Source of the DNA: Acidimicrobiaceae bacterium
GTDB lineage: Bacteria; Actinomycetota; Acidimicrobiia; Acidimicrobiales; RAAP-2
Direction: 5' to 3'
DNA length: 57,829 bases
Assembly (NCBI GenBank): GCA_027315005.1
Contig: DAHUZT010000018.1
Location: 1-57,829 of the forward strand
Shown here: positions 3,845 through 35,663 of the stretch, piece by piece
Layout: each line of letters opens with the position of its first letter
Numbering within the stretch: position 1 is the first letter of the stretch
The notes under the pieces: model-generated
Told to the model about the DNA's origin: nothing
Database searches by the model: none
What the model saw: the letters and a program-made list of their open reading frames with translations, nothing else
Position numbers and translations under genes: made by a program

Positions 3845-4519
3845 ATGACGGGCGGCGCCGGTATCGACACCGGTCCCGGCCGTGCGGCGGAGACGACGGA
3901 CGCGACCACCAACGGCCGCCGACTGACCGCAGAGGCCCGGCGGCGACAGCTCTTCGAGGTAGCGCTCGGCCTGTTCGCCGAGCACGGCTACGCCGCCACC
4001 ACGATGGACGACATCGCAGAACAGGCCGGGGTCACCAAACCTCTCGTCTACCAACACTTCGAATCCAAGCGTGCCCTGTACCTCGAGCTCATGGACGTGT
4101 TCTCCACCGCCCTCGTTTCCGACATCGTGAAGGCGACGGCCGATGCCGAAGGACCCCGCCAACAGGTCGAACGCGGGTTCGCCGCCTACTTCGACCTCAT
4201 GGTCGGAAACCAATCGGCCTTCCGGCTGCTCTATGGCCGGGACGCACCGGACGATCCTGAGTTGGGTGCCGCCCTGGCCCGAGTCGAGGACGCAATGGCC
4301 CAGGCCATCGACCCTCTGATCGACGCCGGGCTCGAGCCCGAGCACCGGCTACTGCTGGCCCACGCCGTCGTGGGGATGGCCGAAGCAGTCAGCCGGCACT
4401 GGTTGCAAGCCCGTCGCTTGGAGGTACCGAACGGTTCGGAGCGCAAGGAGGCCGACGGGCTCGCCATCCGGTTGGCCGACTTTGCCTGGGGCGGGCTCCG
4501 TCAGGTGCACCGGATCTGA
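3845..4519 (+). CDS. TetR/AcrR family transcriptional regulator
   Basis: A 224-residue one-component regulator. After about 25 flexible residues the DNA-binding domain runs RRRQLFEVALGLFAEHGY, then the helix-turn-helix MDDIAEQAGVTKPLVYQHF; the remaining helices form a ligand-binding dimer domain. It lies alone between the glycosyltransferase, 70 bp upstream on the same strand, and the convergent anti-sigma gene, with only 17 bp between stop codons, so its target is not evident. The start at 3845 is chosen because TACCAT lies 7 bp upstream with no ribosome-binding site. Ligand unknown. Confidence 0.88.
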   Translation: MTGGAGIDTGPGRAAETTDATTNGRRLTAEARRRQLFEVALGLFAEHGYAATTMDDIAEQAGVTKPLVYQHFESKRALYLELMDVFSTALVSDIVKATADAEGPRQQVERGFAAYFDLMVGNQSAFRLLYGRDAPDDPELGAALARVEDAMAQAIDPLIDAGLEPEHRLLLAHAVVGMAEAVSRHWLQARRLEVPNGSERKEADGLAIRLADFAWGGLRQVHRI

Positions 4520-4536
4520 TCGTCAGACATCGACGA

Positions 4537-5475
4537 TCAGGCGGGCACCTGTCCGGCGACCACCGGCCGGTTGACCGACTGCACGACCCCTCCCGAGCGC
4601 TCGTTGGTGATGGCGAAGGCCGAAACGGTGTGGACGCCTCCCACGCTGAAGGGTACGACCGTCGGATGGCGCCCCAGCAGGCCGAGCGAGATCGTCTTCT
4701 GATCGATCACACCCCAGAGCTGGTACGTCCGGCCGGCCGGCAGCGGCGTCAGATGCTCCGACACGACGAACCCGGTCCCGGTGCTGGTGAGCACGACCAG
4801 CACTTTGCTGATCGGGTTCGATCCAGTGGCGCCGACGGCTGACGTCAGCTGCACCTTCGCCGACGACGGCAGGGCCATGGCCGCCTGCTCGGCCGCGTTG
4901 AGCAACGGCATGGTCGGACCGACCGCATTCGGGTGATCCGAATGGACCGACCGAACCCCGAAGGCGATGGCCACGACGGCGGCGGCGGCCACCCCCACGG
5001 CCGCCACCCAGTGACCCAACCGGTGGCGCCGACGGGCAGCCAGGTCGACCGGCGGATTCAAGCCTCCGTCACTTCCCGTGCCAAGACGGCTCCCCCCGCG
5101 ACGGGAGGCGCTGTCACGAGAAATCGAATGGTGACCGGTGTCCTCCATATCGGCGCTCATATCGACTGCGCCGGTTCGTCCTTCCTCACCGGTGCCGAGA
5201 CGCTCGGCCAGACGACGCCAGGGCGGGGGGGCGTCCGCCTCCAGGCGGGCCGCAATTCCCTCCCACACCTGTGGAGGTGCTTCACCTCCGGAGTTGGCCA
5301 GGAGAGCGGCTACCTCATGATGGCCGGCGACCTCGAGCGCGCACCGAACACAACCCTCCAGGTGCCGCCCGACAAGGCTGGCCGCTTCGGGGTCACAGGC
5401 GTCGAGGGCATACACGCCGAGCAGCGATTCGATCTCCTCATGCTCGTTTCGGCTCAATGCCTCGCCGTCGTTCAT
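4537..5475 (-). CDS. Anti-sigma factor, RskA-like with zinc-anti-sigma domain
   Basis: The 312-residue single-pass membrane protein should bind and inhibit the sigma factor encoded just upstream. The N-terminal zinc-anti-sigma motif is His38-x3-Cys42-x2-Cys45 (GRHLEGCVRC). A long polar linker follows, then one membrane helix around residues 154-175 (WVAAVGVAAAAVVAIAFGV), then an extracytoplasmic domain resembling the RskA C-terminal fold with TYQLWGVID and FAITNERSGG. In characterised relatives, regulated intramembrane proteolysis releases the sigma factor. Its ATG overlaps the sigma stop codon as ATGA, indicating translational coupling. Confidence 0.9.
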   Translation of the reverse strand: MNDGEALSRNEHEEIESLLGVYALDACDPEAASLVGRHLEGCVRCALEVAGHHEVAALLANSGGEAPPQVWEGIAARLEADAPPPWRRLAERLGTGEEGRTGAVDMSADMEDTGHHSISRDSASRRGGSRLGTGSDGGLNPPVDLAARRRHRLGHWVAAVGVAAAAVVAIAFGVRSVHSDHPNAVGPTMPLLNAAEQAAMALPSSAKVQLTSAVGATGSNPISKVLVVLTSTGTGFVVSEHLTPLPAGRTYQLWGVIDQKTISLGLLGRHPTVVPFSVGGVHTVSAFAITNERSGGVVQSVNRPVVAGQVPA

Positions 5476-6056
5476 CGTTCCGCTCCTGCAGGCTCAACGC
5501 CCCGTCGGGCCAGATCCGCCCGGAGACGGCTCAGACCGGTTCGGATGCGGCTCTTCACCGTTCCCTCCGGCTCGTGCAACACCTGCGCGACCTCCCGGTA
5601 AGTCTGACCTCCGAAGTAGGCCAGTTCGATGGGCCGGCGCAGGTCGTCGGGCAGAGCGCGGAGCGCTTCTTGTACGAACTCGGCGACCGCTAGGTCCCAC
5701 ACTTCACGGTCGATGTCGTATCCCGCCGTCGCCGTCTCGAGTGAGATCCGGCCTTCCCGCTTACGACGGGCCTCCTCGGAGCGGACGAAATCGACAGATT
5801 TCCCGTGCGTGCAGGTGAGGAGGAAGGAGCGAAGCGTGCCCCGTTGTGCGTCGAACTTCTCCGGATGGTTCCACAGATCGAAGAACACCTCTTGGGTGAT
5901 CTCCTCGGCCGGAGGCTCACTCCGCAAAATGCGCCGGGAGAGCGCGTGGACCGCCCCACCGTGCCTGCGGTAGACCTCGGCCAGCGCCTGCTGCTGCCAG
6001 CGTCCGATCGCGACCACCAGGCTGGCATCGCTCTGCTGCTCCAATTCCACCGTCAC
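5472..6056 (-). CDS. ECF RNA polymerase sigma factor, SigK-like
   Basis: The 194-residue extracytoplasmic-function sigma factor has region 2 at about residues 20-95 (EITQEVFFDLWNHPEKFD is the core-binding/-10 segment) and region 4 at about 125-183 (TYREVAQVLHEPEGTVKSR, helix-turn-helix for the -35). Pairing with an RskA-like anti-sigma places it near SigK. The GTG start at 6056 is 7 bp after CCGAAT of a SigK-like promoter on the same strand, implying positive autoregulation from a leaderless mRNA. The cupredoxin/ferritin operon on the other strand carries the matching promoter and is the obvious target. Confidence 0.93.
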   Translation of the reverse strand: MTVELEQQSDASLVVAIGRWQQQALAEVYRRHGGAVHALSRRILRSEPPAEEITQEVFFDLWNHPEKFDAQRGTLRSFLLTCTHGKSVDFVRSEEARRKREGRISLETATAGYDIDREVWDLAVAEFVQEALRALPDDLRRPIELAYFGGQTYREVAQVLHEPEGTVKSRIRTGLSRLRADLARRGVEPAGAER

Positions 6057-6063
6057 CCACCCT

Positions 6064-6090
6064 ATTCGGAATCGTGAGGACTCTGGATGG
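6064..6090 (-). promoter_or_regulatory. SigK-like promoter of the sigma/anti-sigma operon
   Basis: On the minus strand the -35-like CCATCC (6090-6085) is followed by 15 bp and the -10-like CCGAAT (6069-6064). The hexamers equal the Mycobacterium tuberculosis SigK consensus as I recall it, where the spacer is about 15-17 bp. Seven bases separate CCGAAT from the GTG start at 6056. Confidence 0.72.
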
Positions 6091-6204
6091 ATCGATGACC
6101 GAGATCACGGGGCGGCACACTCCGGGACCCGGTGACCGTGGATCGTCGACGTGATGAAACCGCTCGCGGGACTCAACTGCTCTCCGGCGCCCGGAGTGTT
6201 TCTG

Positions 6205-6231
6205 TCATCCGGCATCGCGATGGCTCCGAAT
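6205..6231 (+). promoter_or_regulatory. SigK-like promoter of the cupredoxin/ferritin operon
   Basis: TCATCC (6205-6210), a 15-bp spacer and CCGAAT (6226-6231) repeat the layout of the divergent sigma promoter with a single mismatch. The ATG at 6238 follows after 6 bp. The longer in-frame reading from 6151 would begin upstream of this promoter and is therefore rejected as the start. Confidence 0.72.
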
Positions 6232-6237
6232 AGCCAC

Positions 6238-6681
6238 ATGATGAGCTACCCCCCCGATAACGCGCACCGAACCGGCCACACCGGCGAGCAACCTGGCAGG
6301 AAAGCCGCCAAGGCACCGTTCCGTGCCGCTCGACGTTCGATTGCCGTCGCGCTCGTCGTCGGGGTGGCGGTCGTGTCGAGCGCGTGCTCGTCGAGCACGG
6401 GTGCTTCCACGAAGTCAGCGTCGTCGTCGACCAAGTCGACCATCACCATCCACAACTTCGCCTACTCGCCGGATCGGGTCACCGTCGCACCGGGTGCCAC
6501 GGTCACGGTGGCCAATCATGACCAGTCGATCCACACGGTGACCTCCACCACCGGGAAGTTCAACACCAATTACATCCCTGCGGGACATACCGTCACCTTC
6601 ACAGCACCGAAGGCCCCCGGCTCGTACCCGTTCTTCTGCATGATCCATCAGTACATGACCGGAACGCTCGTCGTCTCGTGA
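6238..6681 (+). CDS. Exported cupredoxin (plastocyanin-like) lipoprotein
   Basis: The 147-residue protein has a basic N-region, a hydrophobic stretch and the lipobox VVSSAC, so it is probably a membrane-anchored extracytoplasmic lipoprotein. The mature domain is a small blue-copper fold: TITIHNFAYSPDRVTVAPG, then the first copper ligand His in DQSIHTVTS, then Cys, His and Met in FFCMIHQYMTG. It should shuttle single electrons or bind copper. The ATG ATG at 6238/6241 is set by the SigK-like promoter ending at 6231. The first gene of a three-gene unit, it is followed by two ferritin-like proteins, suggesting a shared iron/copper redox role. Confidence 0.9.
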   Translation: MMSYPPDNAHRTGHTGEQPGRKAAKAPFRAARRSIAVALVVGVAVVSSACSSSTGASTKSASSSTKSTITIHNFAYSPDRVTVAPGATVTVANHDQSIHTVTSTTGKFNTNYIPAGHTVTFTAPKAPGSYPFFCMIHQYMTGTLVVS

Positions 6682-6779: not shown

Positions 6780-7679
6780 ATGTTCGGACGTAGGCAGGGA
6801 TACCGGGAGGGAGCTGCTCCTCCCATCGGCATCGATCCAGGGGCCATGGACCAGCTCATCGAGCAGTCCCACGACATCCACAGTGACGCGATGGTCACCA
6901 CGACCGTCGCTCTCGACGAGCTCGTCGAGACCGGCCTCGAAGCCAGGGCCCATGGCGACATCGAGGAGGACGAGTCACGCCAGGTGGCCGAAGAGCGATC
7001 ACGATTGATCGGTGCCGCGACGTTCGGGGGTGGCCTGCTGGCCGCTGCCGGAGTGGCTGCGGCATTCGAGACGCTGACCGCCTCACCCGCCTTCGCCGCC
7101 TCTCCGACCGACATCCAGATTCTCCAGACGGCGTCTTCGATCGAAGTGCTCGCCGTCTCGACCTACAAGACCGCACTGACCCTCCCCTTCATCGGCGGAT
7201 CGTCGGCGAACCCGGTGGTGAAGACCTTCGCAACCACCACCATGGACCAGCACCAACAGCACCTTCAGGCCTTCAACGCGGCGATCACCGGTCTCGGGGG
7301 CCAGACCCAGACCAATCCGGACCCGGTGCTCGCCAAAGTGGTCCAGGCGGCCCTACCCGGACTGACCGGTCCCGGTCCGGTCGTCGCCCTCGCCCTCGAG
7401 CTCGAACAGGGGGCGGCCGAGACCTACGTCGCTGATGTGGCCGTTCTGTCCGACGCCAACGCCAAGAAGGTCACCGCCTCGATCATGGGGGTAGAGGCCC
7501 AGCACGCGTCGGTGCTTCTTGCGGTGCAGGCCCTGCTCAATGCCGGCGCACCCCAACTCATCACCCTCGCCCCGGGCAACCTGGCCAATCTCCCGGCAGC
7601 CGCCGGCTCGGTCGGTTTCCCGCAGGCGTTCTACCCCACCAACCAGGCCCGCCCATCGACTGAAGGAGCCCGCTCATGA
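6780..7679 (+). CDS. Exported ferritin-like domain protein 1
   Basis: The 299-residue protein has a long acidic/histidine-containing N-terminal extension (about 72 residues, including SHDIHSDAM and LDELVE), then a hydrophobic segment ending ASPAFA|A near residue 107 like a signal peptide. The mature part matches the ferritin-like family typed as Ferritin_2: repeated helices with Glu/His such as SSIEVLAVSTY, MDQHQQHLQAF, LALELEQGAAETY and GVEAQHASVL, suitable for a di-iron site. An AAGGAG site precedes the ATG. It overlaps the next gene by ATGA. Metal binding or ferroxidase activity is inferred, not shown. Confidence 0.85.
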   Translation: MFGRRQGYREGAAPPIGIDPGAMDQLIEQSHDIHSDAMVTTTVALDELVETGLEARAHGDIEEDESRQVAEERSRLIGAATFGGGLLAAAGVAAAFETLTASPAFAASPTDIQILQTASSIEVLAVSTYKTALTLPFIGGSSANPVVKTFATTTMDQHQQHLQAFNAAITGLGGQTQTNPDPVLAKVVQAALPGLTGPGPVVALALELEQGAAETYVADVAVLSDANAKKVTASIMGVEAQHASVLLAVQALLNAGAPQLITLAPGNLANLPAAAGSVGFPQAFYPTNQARPSTEGARS

Positions 7680-8452
7680 GACGCAACCGAACGACGGAAG
7701 TCATGGCCATTTCCGAGCACGAGCTCGACATCCACACCACTGAACTGGACGAACTCCATCACGATGTCGGTATGCCGGCCATGCGCGCCGCCGTCAGCCA
7801 ATGGACAGAGCGCAGCCGCACCAGCCGTAGAGGATTCCTCATCGGAGCCGGTGCACTGGCGGGAGGGGCGGTGCTCGCTGCTTGCTCCTCGGGGAGCTCG
7901 AGCCCGACATCCACCACCGGCGGTTCCGTTGCCTCGAAGTCGGCCAAGTTGACCGGTGACTTGGCGGTAGCCGCGATGGCTGCCAGCCTGGAGAACCTCG
8001 CCGTTGTCGCATACGGCGACGTCCTCGCTGCGGCTAACGCCGGAAAGCTCGGCACGGTTCCACCTGCCTTCGCCAACTTCGCCAACACGGTGAAGGCTCA
8101 GCACACCCAACACGCGCAAGCGTGGAACGGTGCCATCCAGGCTGCCGGTCATGCTCCGATCACCGGTCCAGACCAAGCGCTGGTGCCGACAGTCGACAAG
8201 CAGTTCGCCAAGGTCACCGATGTGACGGGGGCGGCCGAGCTCGCACTCGAACTCGAGGAGATCGCCGGCGCCACCTATCAGTCGGCCGTCTCGGCGGTCA
8301 AGGCCAGCTCGTCGATCAAAATCGCAGCAAGCATCGAGCCGGTCGAGCTGCAGCATGCGGCGATCCTGCTCTTCGTACTGGGGAAGTACCCGATACCCAA
8401 CGCCTTCAGCCCCTTGACCGGGGCCCGGCCGGTCAGCGACTACACCGGTTGA
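7676..8452 (+). CDS. Ferritin-like domain lipoprotein 2 (Tat-type signal)
   Basis: The 258-residue protein is a paralogue of the preceding gene. A 50-residue N-terminal extension (LDIHTTELDELHHDVG) precedes a twin-arginine motif, SRRGFLIGAG, and the lipobox VLAAC with Cys70, so it should be exported folded by Tat and lipid-anchored. The mature domain carries SLENLAVVAYGD, KAQHTQHAQAWNG, LALELEEIAGATY and PVELQHAAILLF, the repeated Glu/His helices of a ferritin-like bundle. Its ATG overlaps the previous stop. The unit ends at a strong hairpin at 8495-8538. Confidence 0.85.
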   Translation: MRRNRTTEVMAISEHELDIHTTELDELHHDVGMPAMRAAVSQWTERSRTSRRGFLIGAGALAGGAVLAACSSGSSSPTSTTGGSVASKSAKLTGDLAVAAMAASLENLAVVAYGDVLAAANAGKLGTVPPAFANFANTVKAQHTQHAQAWNGAIQAAGHAPITGPDQALVPTVDKQFAKVTDVTGAAELALELEEIAGATYQSAVSAVKASSSIKIAASIEPVELQHAAILLFVLGKYPIPNAFSPLTGARPVSDYTG

Positions 8453-34464: not shown

Positions 34465-34535
34465 TCGGGAAGTGGAGTCCGGATCAAGAGGCATCCATCC
34501 CCCCGGCCGGCATCGAACCACCAGCGGTACCGGCG

Positions 34536-35663
34536 ATGGAGGACGCTTCGATCGAGCAACATCTGTGGGAAGGACGCCGCCTGATCGGACGGCTCGGGCT
34601 GCAACGGGCTCTGGGCGTGATCTGGCTGATCGACGCCGGCCTGCAAGCGGAACCTGCGAAATTCGCCCACGCCTATCCCCTCGGCACACTGGCCCAATCG
34701 GTGATGGGAGAGCCGAACTGGATCAATCGGTCGATCTTCGCCGGAATCCATCCCTTCGTCGCCTACTGGCCGTTGTGGAACCTGGGCGCCGTCCTCATCC
34801 AACTCGTCATCGGTATCTGCCTCGTCACAGGTCGGTTCACCAAAGGTGCACTCGGGGTCTCGATCATCTGGGCCCTTGTCGTCTGGTGGTTGGGTGAGGG
34901 ATTCGGCACTCTGCTGAGTGGGTTCGGTCTGATGGCGGCAGGTGCGCCAGGCCCAGCCCTCCTCTACGTGTTGCTCGCCGTGATGGCCTGGCCACGTGCA
35001 GGTCGACCAGATGTCGACCATCGGACATGGACGGTCACCTGGGTCACCCTTTGGGTGAGCGCCGCCATTCTCGAGTATCCCTTTTCCCATCCGGTCGGCC
35101 AGGTGCTTCAGGCCAATCTGGAGGAGAACTTGAGCACCACCAGACTGCTGGCGAGTACCAGCACCTGGTTCGGCCATGTCGCGTCCGGACATGCCGTGAC
35201 CGTGGCTGTCGCTCTGGCCGTCCTCCAGGTGACGATCGGCCTGGGAGCGCTCTTCGCCAACGGCTGGCCACGGCTCTGGCCCGCATTGGGAATCTTCCTG
35301 TCGTTGTTCTTCTGGGTCGTGGTCCAGCAGCTAGGAGGTCTCCCCGGTACAGGCGCCACCGACCCCGACCTGGGTCCCCTGATGGTGGTCCTGGGTCTGG
35401 CGGCCTGGCCCGCGCTCCGCACCGGAGCTGGGCAACGTCAAAAGCCGAAGGACCCCGGAGCGAGGCGTGCGCCGCAGGTGGCGGAACGTGGAACCAGGCG
35501 ATCCCAGAGGGGCGGGTTCGGTCCGGGTTCAGCCTGGCTATCAGGAGCTCACCCTCGAATGTCCGGACGGAAAGCATCGAGAGAGCTGGCAGCCCAAAAT
35601 GAGCTGGTCGCCGCCCCGGCGGTCAGGGCCAGGACGAGCCATCGCCGTGCCGGGTGGAGGTGA
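34536..35663 (+). CDS. DoxX/MauE-like multi-spanning membrane protein
   Basis: The 375-residue protein has about eight hydrophobic segments. LQRALGVIWLIDAGLQAEPA and IHPFVAYWPLWNLGAVLIQLV resemble the DoxX-like family. The last 85 residues are arginine- and proline-rich and run 115 bp across the convergent DUF4267 gene, so only the membrane part is surely selected. Role unknown; DoxX-like proteins are tied to membrane redox or quinone handling. The start is uncertain: the ATG at 34536 is used, but the frame is open to 34389. Confidence 0.7.
   Translation: MEDASIEQHLWEGRRLIGRLGLQRALGVIWLIDAGLQAEPAKFAHAYPLGTLAQSVMGEPNWINRSIFAGIHPFVAYWPLWNLGAVLIQLVIGICLVTGRFTKGALGVSIIWALVVWWLGEGFGTLLSGFGLMAAGAPGPALLYVLLAVMAWPRAGRPDVDHRTWTVTWVTLWVSAAILEYPFSHPVGQVLQANLEENLSTTRLLASTSTWFGHVASGHAVTVAVALAVLQVTIGLGALFANGWPRLWPALGIFLSLFFWVVVQQLGGLPGTGATDPDLGPLMVVLGLAAWPALRTGAGQRQKPKDPGARRAPQVAERGTRRSQRGGFGPGSAWLSGAHPRMSGRKASRELAAQNELVAAPAVRARTSHRRAGWR

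Follow-up and report, generated by a model that had tools for sequence, protein, structure and literature searches.

Among described systems, the one closest to the locus reported here is the SigK-RskA pair of mycobacteria, whose promoter consensus, CCATCC...CCGAAT, reportedly goes back to Veyrier in 2008. According to PMC7509140, the two mycobacterial genes are co-transcribed and autoregulated, the Cys133-Cys183 pair is a switch in SigK and occurs in 94% of ECF18 and 56% of ECF19 proteins, and SigK sites are conserved across Actinobacteria, a result that is thus already in print. In M. tuberculosis, RskA is described as being released by regulated proteolysis via Rip1 (PMC7509140; PMC10449499). 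The second of these sources also describes SigK as making no contribution to iron homeostasis in M. tuberculosis, which calls for caution in transferring a metal role by name. M. tuberculosis SigK is placed in ECF18 by PMC7509140 and is paired with AS19-1 by PMC7406223, so that the ECF19 label used below is itself in dispute. Leaderless messages are put at about a quarter of mycobacterial transcripts in PMC6448022.

The window, i.e., the whole stretch of 57,829 nucleotides that was analysed, is contig C81 of a draft genome of 3.06 Mb (130 contigs, 93% complete). Its minus strand codes for a short protein of 194 residues (5472..6056, GTG start) that contains sigma-70 regions 2 and 4 (Pfam Sigma70_r2, 1.7e-15; Sigma70_r4_2, 2.8e-12) and is thus an ECF sigma factor. 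The gene overlaps by 4 bp that of an RskA-type membrane anti-sigma factor (4537..5475, minus strand), whose product matches RskA_C (7.6e-15; 55.8 bits against a cut-off of 29.4) and, at its cut-off, zf-HC2 (1.5e-4). The preliminary description had called the two a SigK/RskA-type pair, and this designation stands in part. The adjacent protein carries the RskA_C domain expected of such a pair, SigK (PRK09646) is the best for the sigma factor among the NCBIfam models listed, and the best PDB match is SigK (4nqw, 5.5e-27); however, the NCBIfam score of 151.8 bits lies under the curated cut-off of 226, outside the SigK subfamily as that model delimits it, and the cysteine pair is lacking. The sole cysteine of the window sigma factor is Cys82, and all 15 rows of the alignment have at most one, so that a switch of the SigK Cys133-Cys183 type cannot form in the window protein. 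The anti-sigma factor contains an HxxxCxxC motif in its N-terminal part. When 65 relatives were scored, 48 proved to keep it; of the 17 without it, at least one (L160) was read in a wrong frame picked by the script. A loose YALDA-like pattern, compared by pattern only, was found in the anti-sigma factors of 50 of these 65 relatives.

On the plus strand, divergently from the sigma gene, lie the genes of a cupredoxin of 147 residues (6238..6681; Pfam Cupredoxin_1, 2.2e-16), predicted to be a lipoprotein from a lipobox recognized by eye, and of two ferritin-like proteins of the Ferritin_2 family, one of 299 residues (ferritin-like 1, 6780..7679; 1.2e-17) and one of 258 residues (ferritin-like 2, 7676..8452; 2.1e-15), which overlap by 4 bp. 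All three had been described as exported; of these, export is well signalled for ferritin-like 2 alone, which shows by eye a twin-arginine signal and a lipobox, whereas ferritin-like 1 has a single arginine where most of its aligned relatives have two. In an alignment of 15 ferritin-like 1 sequences, E122, H158, H161, E209 and H242 are invariant and E239 nearly so, and these residues could plausibly form a di-metal set in which HxxH replaces one ExxH. A PDB sequence search with ferritin-like 1 gave no match below E 0.2. Ahead of its membrane/Tat segment, the same protein also has a conserved stretch some 60 residues long (window 6780-7000), presumably cytoplasmic, in which D19, L26, S30 and D32 are invariant in the 15 rows.

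The gap of 181 bp between the sigma and cupredoxin genes holds two SigK-like candidate promoters. The minus-strand site (6064..6090) consists of CCATCC (6085-6090) and CCGAAT (6064-6069) separated by N15, and ends 7 bp (6057-6063) from the GTG of the sigma gene at 6056; the plus-strand site (6205..6231) consists of TCATCC (6205-6210), again N15, and CCGAAT (6226-6231), and ends 6 bp (6232-6237) from the ATG of the cupredoxin gene at 6238. Re-reading of the sequence reproduced exactly the hexamers, spacers and distances first described. The genome-wide scan that had been proposed as a check went against the motif: YCATCC-N14-17-CCGAAT occurs five times in the draft genome (none for the reversed-pattern control), while about 4.6 copies of the exact hexamer pair per genome are expected under a first-order Markov model of the window. 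Two of the remaining three copies are intragenic (C58 and C93), and the third (C77) overlaps a stop codon, with the next gene about 100 nt further on. As a genome-wide detector of the regulon the exact pair was therefore rejected. A relaxed pattern gave 19 matches in the genome compared to 5 for its reversed control; sites scoring at least 14 (matrix described below) near these and further matches fall nearly all within ORFs of a crude gene caller, which also placed the cupredoxin site inside an ORF. The near-chance frequency of the exact pair, and the position of the other three copies within genes or at a gene's end, would fit a reading in which both sites are chance matches and the true promoters lie elsewhere in the gap. 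At the rate of those three copies, two within one 181-bp gap have a P of about 1.6e-8, but the region was picked post hoc, which weakens this value, and conservation was examined as the more powerful test. The case for the two predicted sites is thus built on their joint occurrence in one gap and on their conservation.

A search of 148 genomes from the order, that of the window included, gave a match to the sigma factor at E ≤1e-20 in 83, and 60 sigma loci were drawn from these, with the sigma gene placed by tblastn. In the 70 nt before the gene, 39 of the 60 relatives match CATCC-N15/16-CCGAA at 9 or more of its 10 positions, compared to 0.38 expected from dinucleotide shuffles, as do 36 of the 44 loci with a sigma identity of at least 55%. 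The relatives share the consensus YCATCC[GA]-N16-CCG[AT]A, and a matrix derived from the 39 sites, with the window outside the training set, extends it to YCATCC[GA]...GGC[TG]-CCG[AT]A[GC]A. This matrix was applied with score thresholds of 17 for sigma loci, 15 for divergent genes, closest orthologues and the phylum-wide search, and 16 for cupredoxin, ferritin-like 1, membrane-protein and Tat-protein loci; expectations for matrix-scored sets come from single-base shuffles. It was run on the best 80 loci of another, named collection, in which the closest sigma relatives come from metagenome-assembled genomes whose titles read Acidimicrobiales, Acidimicrobiaceae or Actinomycetes, and from which 13 loci with 40-mers in common with the training set were removed. 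Of the 67 independent loci that were left, 57 have the site ahead of the sigma gene (0.015 expected) and 10 lack it, while the controls gave 7 for the antisense strand of the same region and 0 and 3 for two intragenic stretches. All 18 of the closest orthologues (L160-L177, 69-79% identity) carry it. An Acidiferrimicrobium sp. record that bears no MAG label (L186) also has the sigma gene, with a site 9 nt ahead of the ATG. Four of the ten loci without it (L182, L189, L195 and L225) show a site on the opposite strand 65-90 nt upstream. Three sigma-bearing records in the collection (L192, L235 and L238) are titled Acidobacteriota, Acidobacteria or Saccharibacteria, where misbinning or mislabelling is likely.

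The comparison of the intergenic region among relatives, which had also been proposed as a check, thus bears out the site and, with the 57 independent loci, lends comparative support to the positive autoregulation first predicted. That both window sites are chance matches appears extremely improbable in light of this conservation, most of it at a fixed distance to the start codon, and of the occurrence of the site before ferritin-like genes on other contigs (see below). The identical N15 spacers, exact in the window, do not generalize: N16 is found in 35 of the 39 matching sites (N15 in 4) and in 40 of the 57 matrix-scored loci. The two window sites differ in quality. The plus-strand site scores 27.7 and has GGCT directly before CCGAAT, as in the consensus of the relatives, whereas the minus-strand site scores 18.4, higher than only 3 of the 39 training sites, and has A three bases before CCGAA where 38 of the 39 have G, which counts against the reading favoured here. 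In a phylum-wide search of 30 loci, the site was present in six (0.02 expected for the 30): two of the eight from the order (the window's own and L241), these eight being mostly distant paralogues, and four of the 22 from outside it. This mostly negative outcome indicates that the promoter code is largely restricted to this orthologous group; variants (CAATCC) occur at a few loci further away from it.

The element may be genuine and yet be read by another regulator, either a different ECF sigma factor or an activator, since the genome codes for at least two further ECF paralogues and binding of the site by this sigma factor is itself a prediction. A pair of boxes held 15-16 nt apart looks sigma-like, however, and the element precedes this sigma gene at most loci, whereas neither of two ECF paralogues examined in the genome of the window has it within 300 nt. 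Moreover, ferritin-like 1 (E ≤1e-15) occurs in 29 of the 148 genomes, all 29 of which also have a sigma match (P 3.7e-9), and 27 of them hold one of the 53 strong sigma matches. We therefore consider a different regulator very unlikely, and the co-conservation suggests that this very sigma factor would read the site.

The distance between site and gene bears on the form of the transcripts. Among the independent sigma genes, 49 of 57 have their first in-frame start 6-11 nt past CCGAAN (2-4 nt in four others; in the last four a stop codon is reached first), and in 14 of the 18 cupredoxin genes with a site it lies 6-8 nt past it (2 or 8 nt in L164; three have none by this rule). Most of these starts thus leave no space for a Shine-Dalgarno sequence. 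Indeed, a Shine-Dalgarno tetramer precedes only 11 of 53 sigma starts as opposed to 32 of 65 anti-sigma starts, and in the window the sigma and cupredoxin genes lack one, while the anti-sigma (CAGGAG), ferritin-like 1 (AAGGAG) and ferritin-like 2 (AAGGAG) genes each possess one. Because transcription from ECF promoters usually begins a few bases past the -10 element, a transcript start at or near the start codon would follow, and the first genes of both operons are predicted from this spacing to be leaderless, as originally proposed. Alternatively, the promoters may be correct and the mRNAs may have short leaders or a later start codon. For some targets the site-to-start distance is indeed about 25-47 nt, i.e., 37 nt with a visible Shine-Dalgarno sequence for the small Tat-signal protein of the same genome and 25-47 nt for several ferritin-like 1 genes, and in the window ATG 6241, 9 nt past the site, could also serve the cupredoxin. 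Considering the tight spacing at sigma and cupredoxin genes and the scarcity of Shine-Dalgarno tetramers at sigma starts, we judge short leaders unlikely at the two window operons, for which leaderless transcripts remain the preferred reading. The same spacing favours the proposed shift of the cupredoxin start from 6151 to 6238. The plus-strand site is contained within the ORF 6151-6681, and a start at 6151 would turn the promoter into coding sequence; an ORF caller reads the candidate promoter as part of the cupredoxin N-terminus.

Of the 60 loci, 16 have a cupredoxin or Ferritin_2 gene in divergent orientation at most about 1.2 kb from the sigma gene, as do 18 of the 80 named loci. A site (score ≥15) was found in the scanned stretch of 13 of these 18, and L164 and L239 show one besides. 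Among the 18 closest orthologues, the cupredoxin/ferritin-like operon is present in seven, all with both promoters. When the genes were taken irrespective of the sigma locus, a site was found at 18 of 34 distinct cupredoxin genes (window included, identical copies dropped), with none at the other 16. Of 30 ferritin-like 1 genes (own included), 15 have one before the gene or its operon, up to about 700 nt upstream (0.1 expected), and 15 have none. Ferritin-like 1 genes with a site on contigs other than that of the sigma gene occur in G009, G005, G066, G067, G135 and G136, among others. The control of one dedicated operon, as first envisaged, is thus supported by comparison for the cupredoxin/ferritin-like genes, but the regulon appears to be wider, as a unit of a small Tat-signal protein and a DUF4331 protein also carries the site. 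Of 11 loci of the Tat-protein gene, including that of the window's own genome (C25), eight have a site (0.0 expected), although for three of these eight (L365, L366 and L369) the alignment is partial and the site 230-325 nt distant, and L368 is just at the threshold; in six of the 11, a DUF4331-like start follows the gene. In the genome of the window, the site (G000:C25:32129-32153) lies 37 nt before the Tat-protein gene (L108, 1564-1869), which has the Shine-Dalgarno sequence GGGAGG and is followed by DUF4331.

Among the 120 distinct proteins encoded after a site scoring at least 17 in the sigma loci, 77 are sigma factors, 10 cupredoxins, 4 ferritin-like 1 proteins and 29 others. The last group includes a family of about 260 residues, a lipoprotein family (6 sequences) and a two-member family, which we would guess by eye to be a molybdopterin oxidoreductase and which had no Pfam match above the cut-off in its first 110 residues. 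The same promoter precedes 13 sequences of the 260-residue family (RCLRYMHDVE..EEFWHGEA; e.g., L160, minus strand near 4435), whose first 110 residues have no Pfam match either; no member was found in the genome of the window, in a search that lacked a positive control. In one relative (L093), a fasciclin-like lipoprotein, recognized by eye, follows a site.

Elsewhere in the genome of the window, ACATCC-N15-CCGAAT occurs 7 nt before the GTG of a membrane protein of 160 residues (L138, 1007-1489, minus strand; G000:C113), which is a possible target. A site was found in 3 of its 28 homologues scored (own included; two of the 30 loci were dropped); a protein that resembles it by eye (L238) has a site 7 nt upstream, and homologues adjoin ferritin-like 1 in G124 and G091. 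In the window, GCATCC-N16-TCGAAC (34491-34519), 17 nt before the ATG at 34536 of another membrane protein (34536-35663), was considered as a target and is not claimed, because a site was found at just 2 of 30 homologues (own included).

Taken together, the genomic comparisons make it highly probable that an autoregulated SigK/RskA-like (ECF19-type) pair drives its own expression and that of an envelope cupredoxin/ferritin-like operon via leaderless transcripts; that is, the sigma factor very probably switches on itself and the neighbouring metal-protein genes. By analogy with its family, the membrane anti-sigma factor would retain the sigma factor until an envelope signal frees it, conceivably through proteolytic release of the Rip1 type. 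The freed sigma factor would then take RNA polymerase to the two divergent copies of YCATCC[GA]-N15/16-CCG[AT]A, of which the minus-strand copy would raise the sigma/anti-sigma operon, thereby closing a positive autoregulatory loop, and the plus-strand copy, judging from promoter conservation, would drive the cupredoxin and the two ferritin-like envelope proteins. Transcription would begin at the start codons or no more than a few bases from them, such that the first genes are read without a leader and the later ones by means of their Shine-Dalgarno sequences. The Tat-protein/DUF4331 unit elsewhere in the genome is probably also driven. Given the nature of the target proteins, the task of the system is likely to be envelope metal or redox homeostasis. 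A broader and more tentative proposal, which we hold to be possible though doubtful as a whole, is that a SigK-like regulon governs, throughout this order of Acidimicrobiia, a metal-redox module of the envelope (the cupredoxin lipoprotein, the ferritin-like proteins of HxxH type and the Tat/DUF4331 unit) mainly by leaderless mRNAs, and that redox or metal sensing has moved from the sigma cysteine pair to the zinc-type HxxxCxxC of the anti-sigma factor. The analysis supplies a promoter code, derived by computation, together with a predicted regulon, for an ECF group of Acidimicrobiia that is represented here mainly by metagenome-assembled genomes, and ties poorly characterised proteins (Ferritin_2, DUF4331 and cupredoxins) to one putative switch.

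Like mycobacterial SigK-RskA (PDB 4NQW), the locus comprises a sigma factor and an adjacent membrane anti-sigma factor of the RskA type, but where the mycobacterial SigK has its pair of cysteines the window protein has Cys82 only. The anti-sigma stretch LLGVYALDAC resembles, in a comparison of patterns only, the helix 1 consensus of AS19-1 (HTLAGAYALDAL) as given in PMC7406223; in the account of the same source, M. tuberculosis RskA is independent of a zinc motif, whereas the window protein has HxxxCxxC. The predicted targets also differ: cupredoxin, Ferritin_2 and DUF4331 genes here, as opposed to mpt70, mpt83 and dipZ for mycobacterial SigK according to PMC3078919, and neither mpt70/mpt83 (fasciclin) nor dipZ is found among the five genes of the locus. 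Among the literature matches listed, none connects cupredoxin, Ferritin_2 or DUF4331 genes with a SigK/RskA system, and a single cancer review contains both of the words "cupredoxin" and "sigk". As in the mycobacterial leaderless genes described in PMC6448022, the start codon coincides with or adjoins the predicted transcription start and has no Shine-Dalgarno sequence; unlike those genes, the leaderless arrangement predicted here is tied to one type of ECF promoter. The type of mechanism is thus already known, and what is new is the target set, the order-wide conservation and the different arrangement of cysteines.
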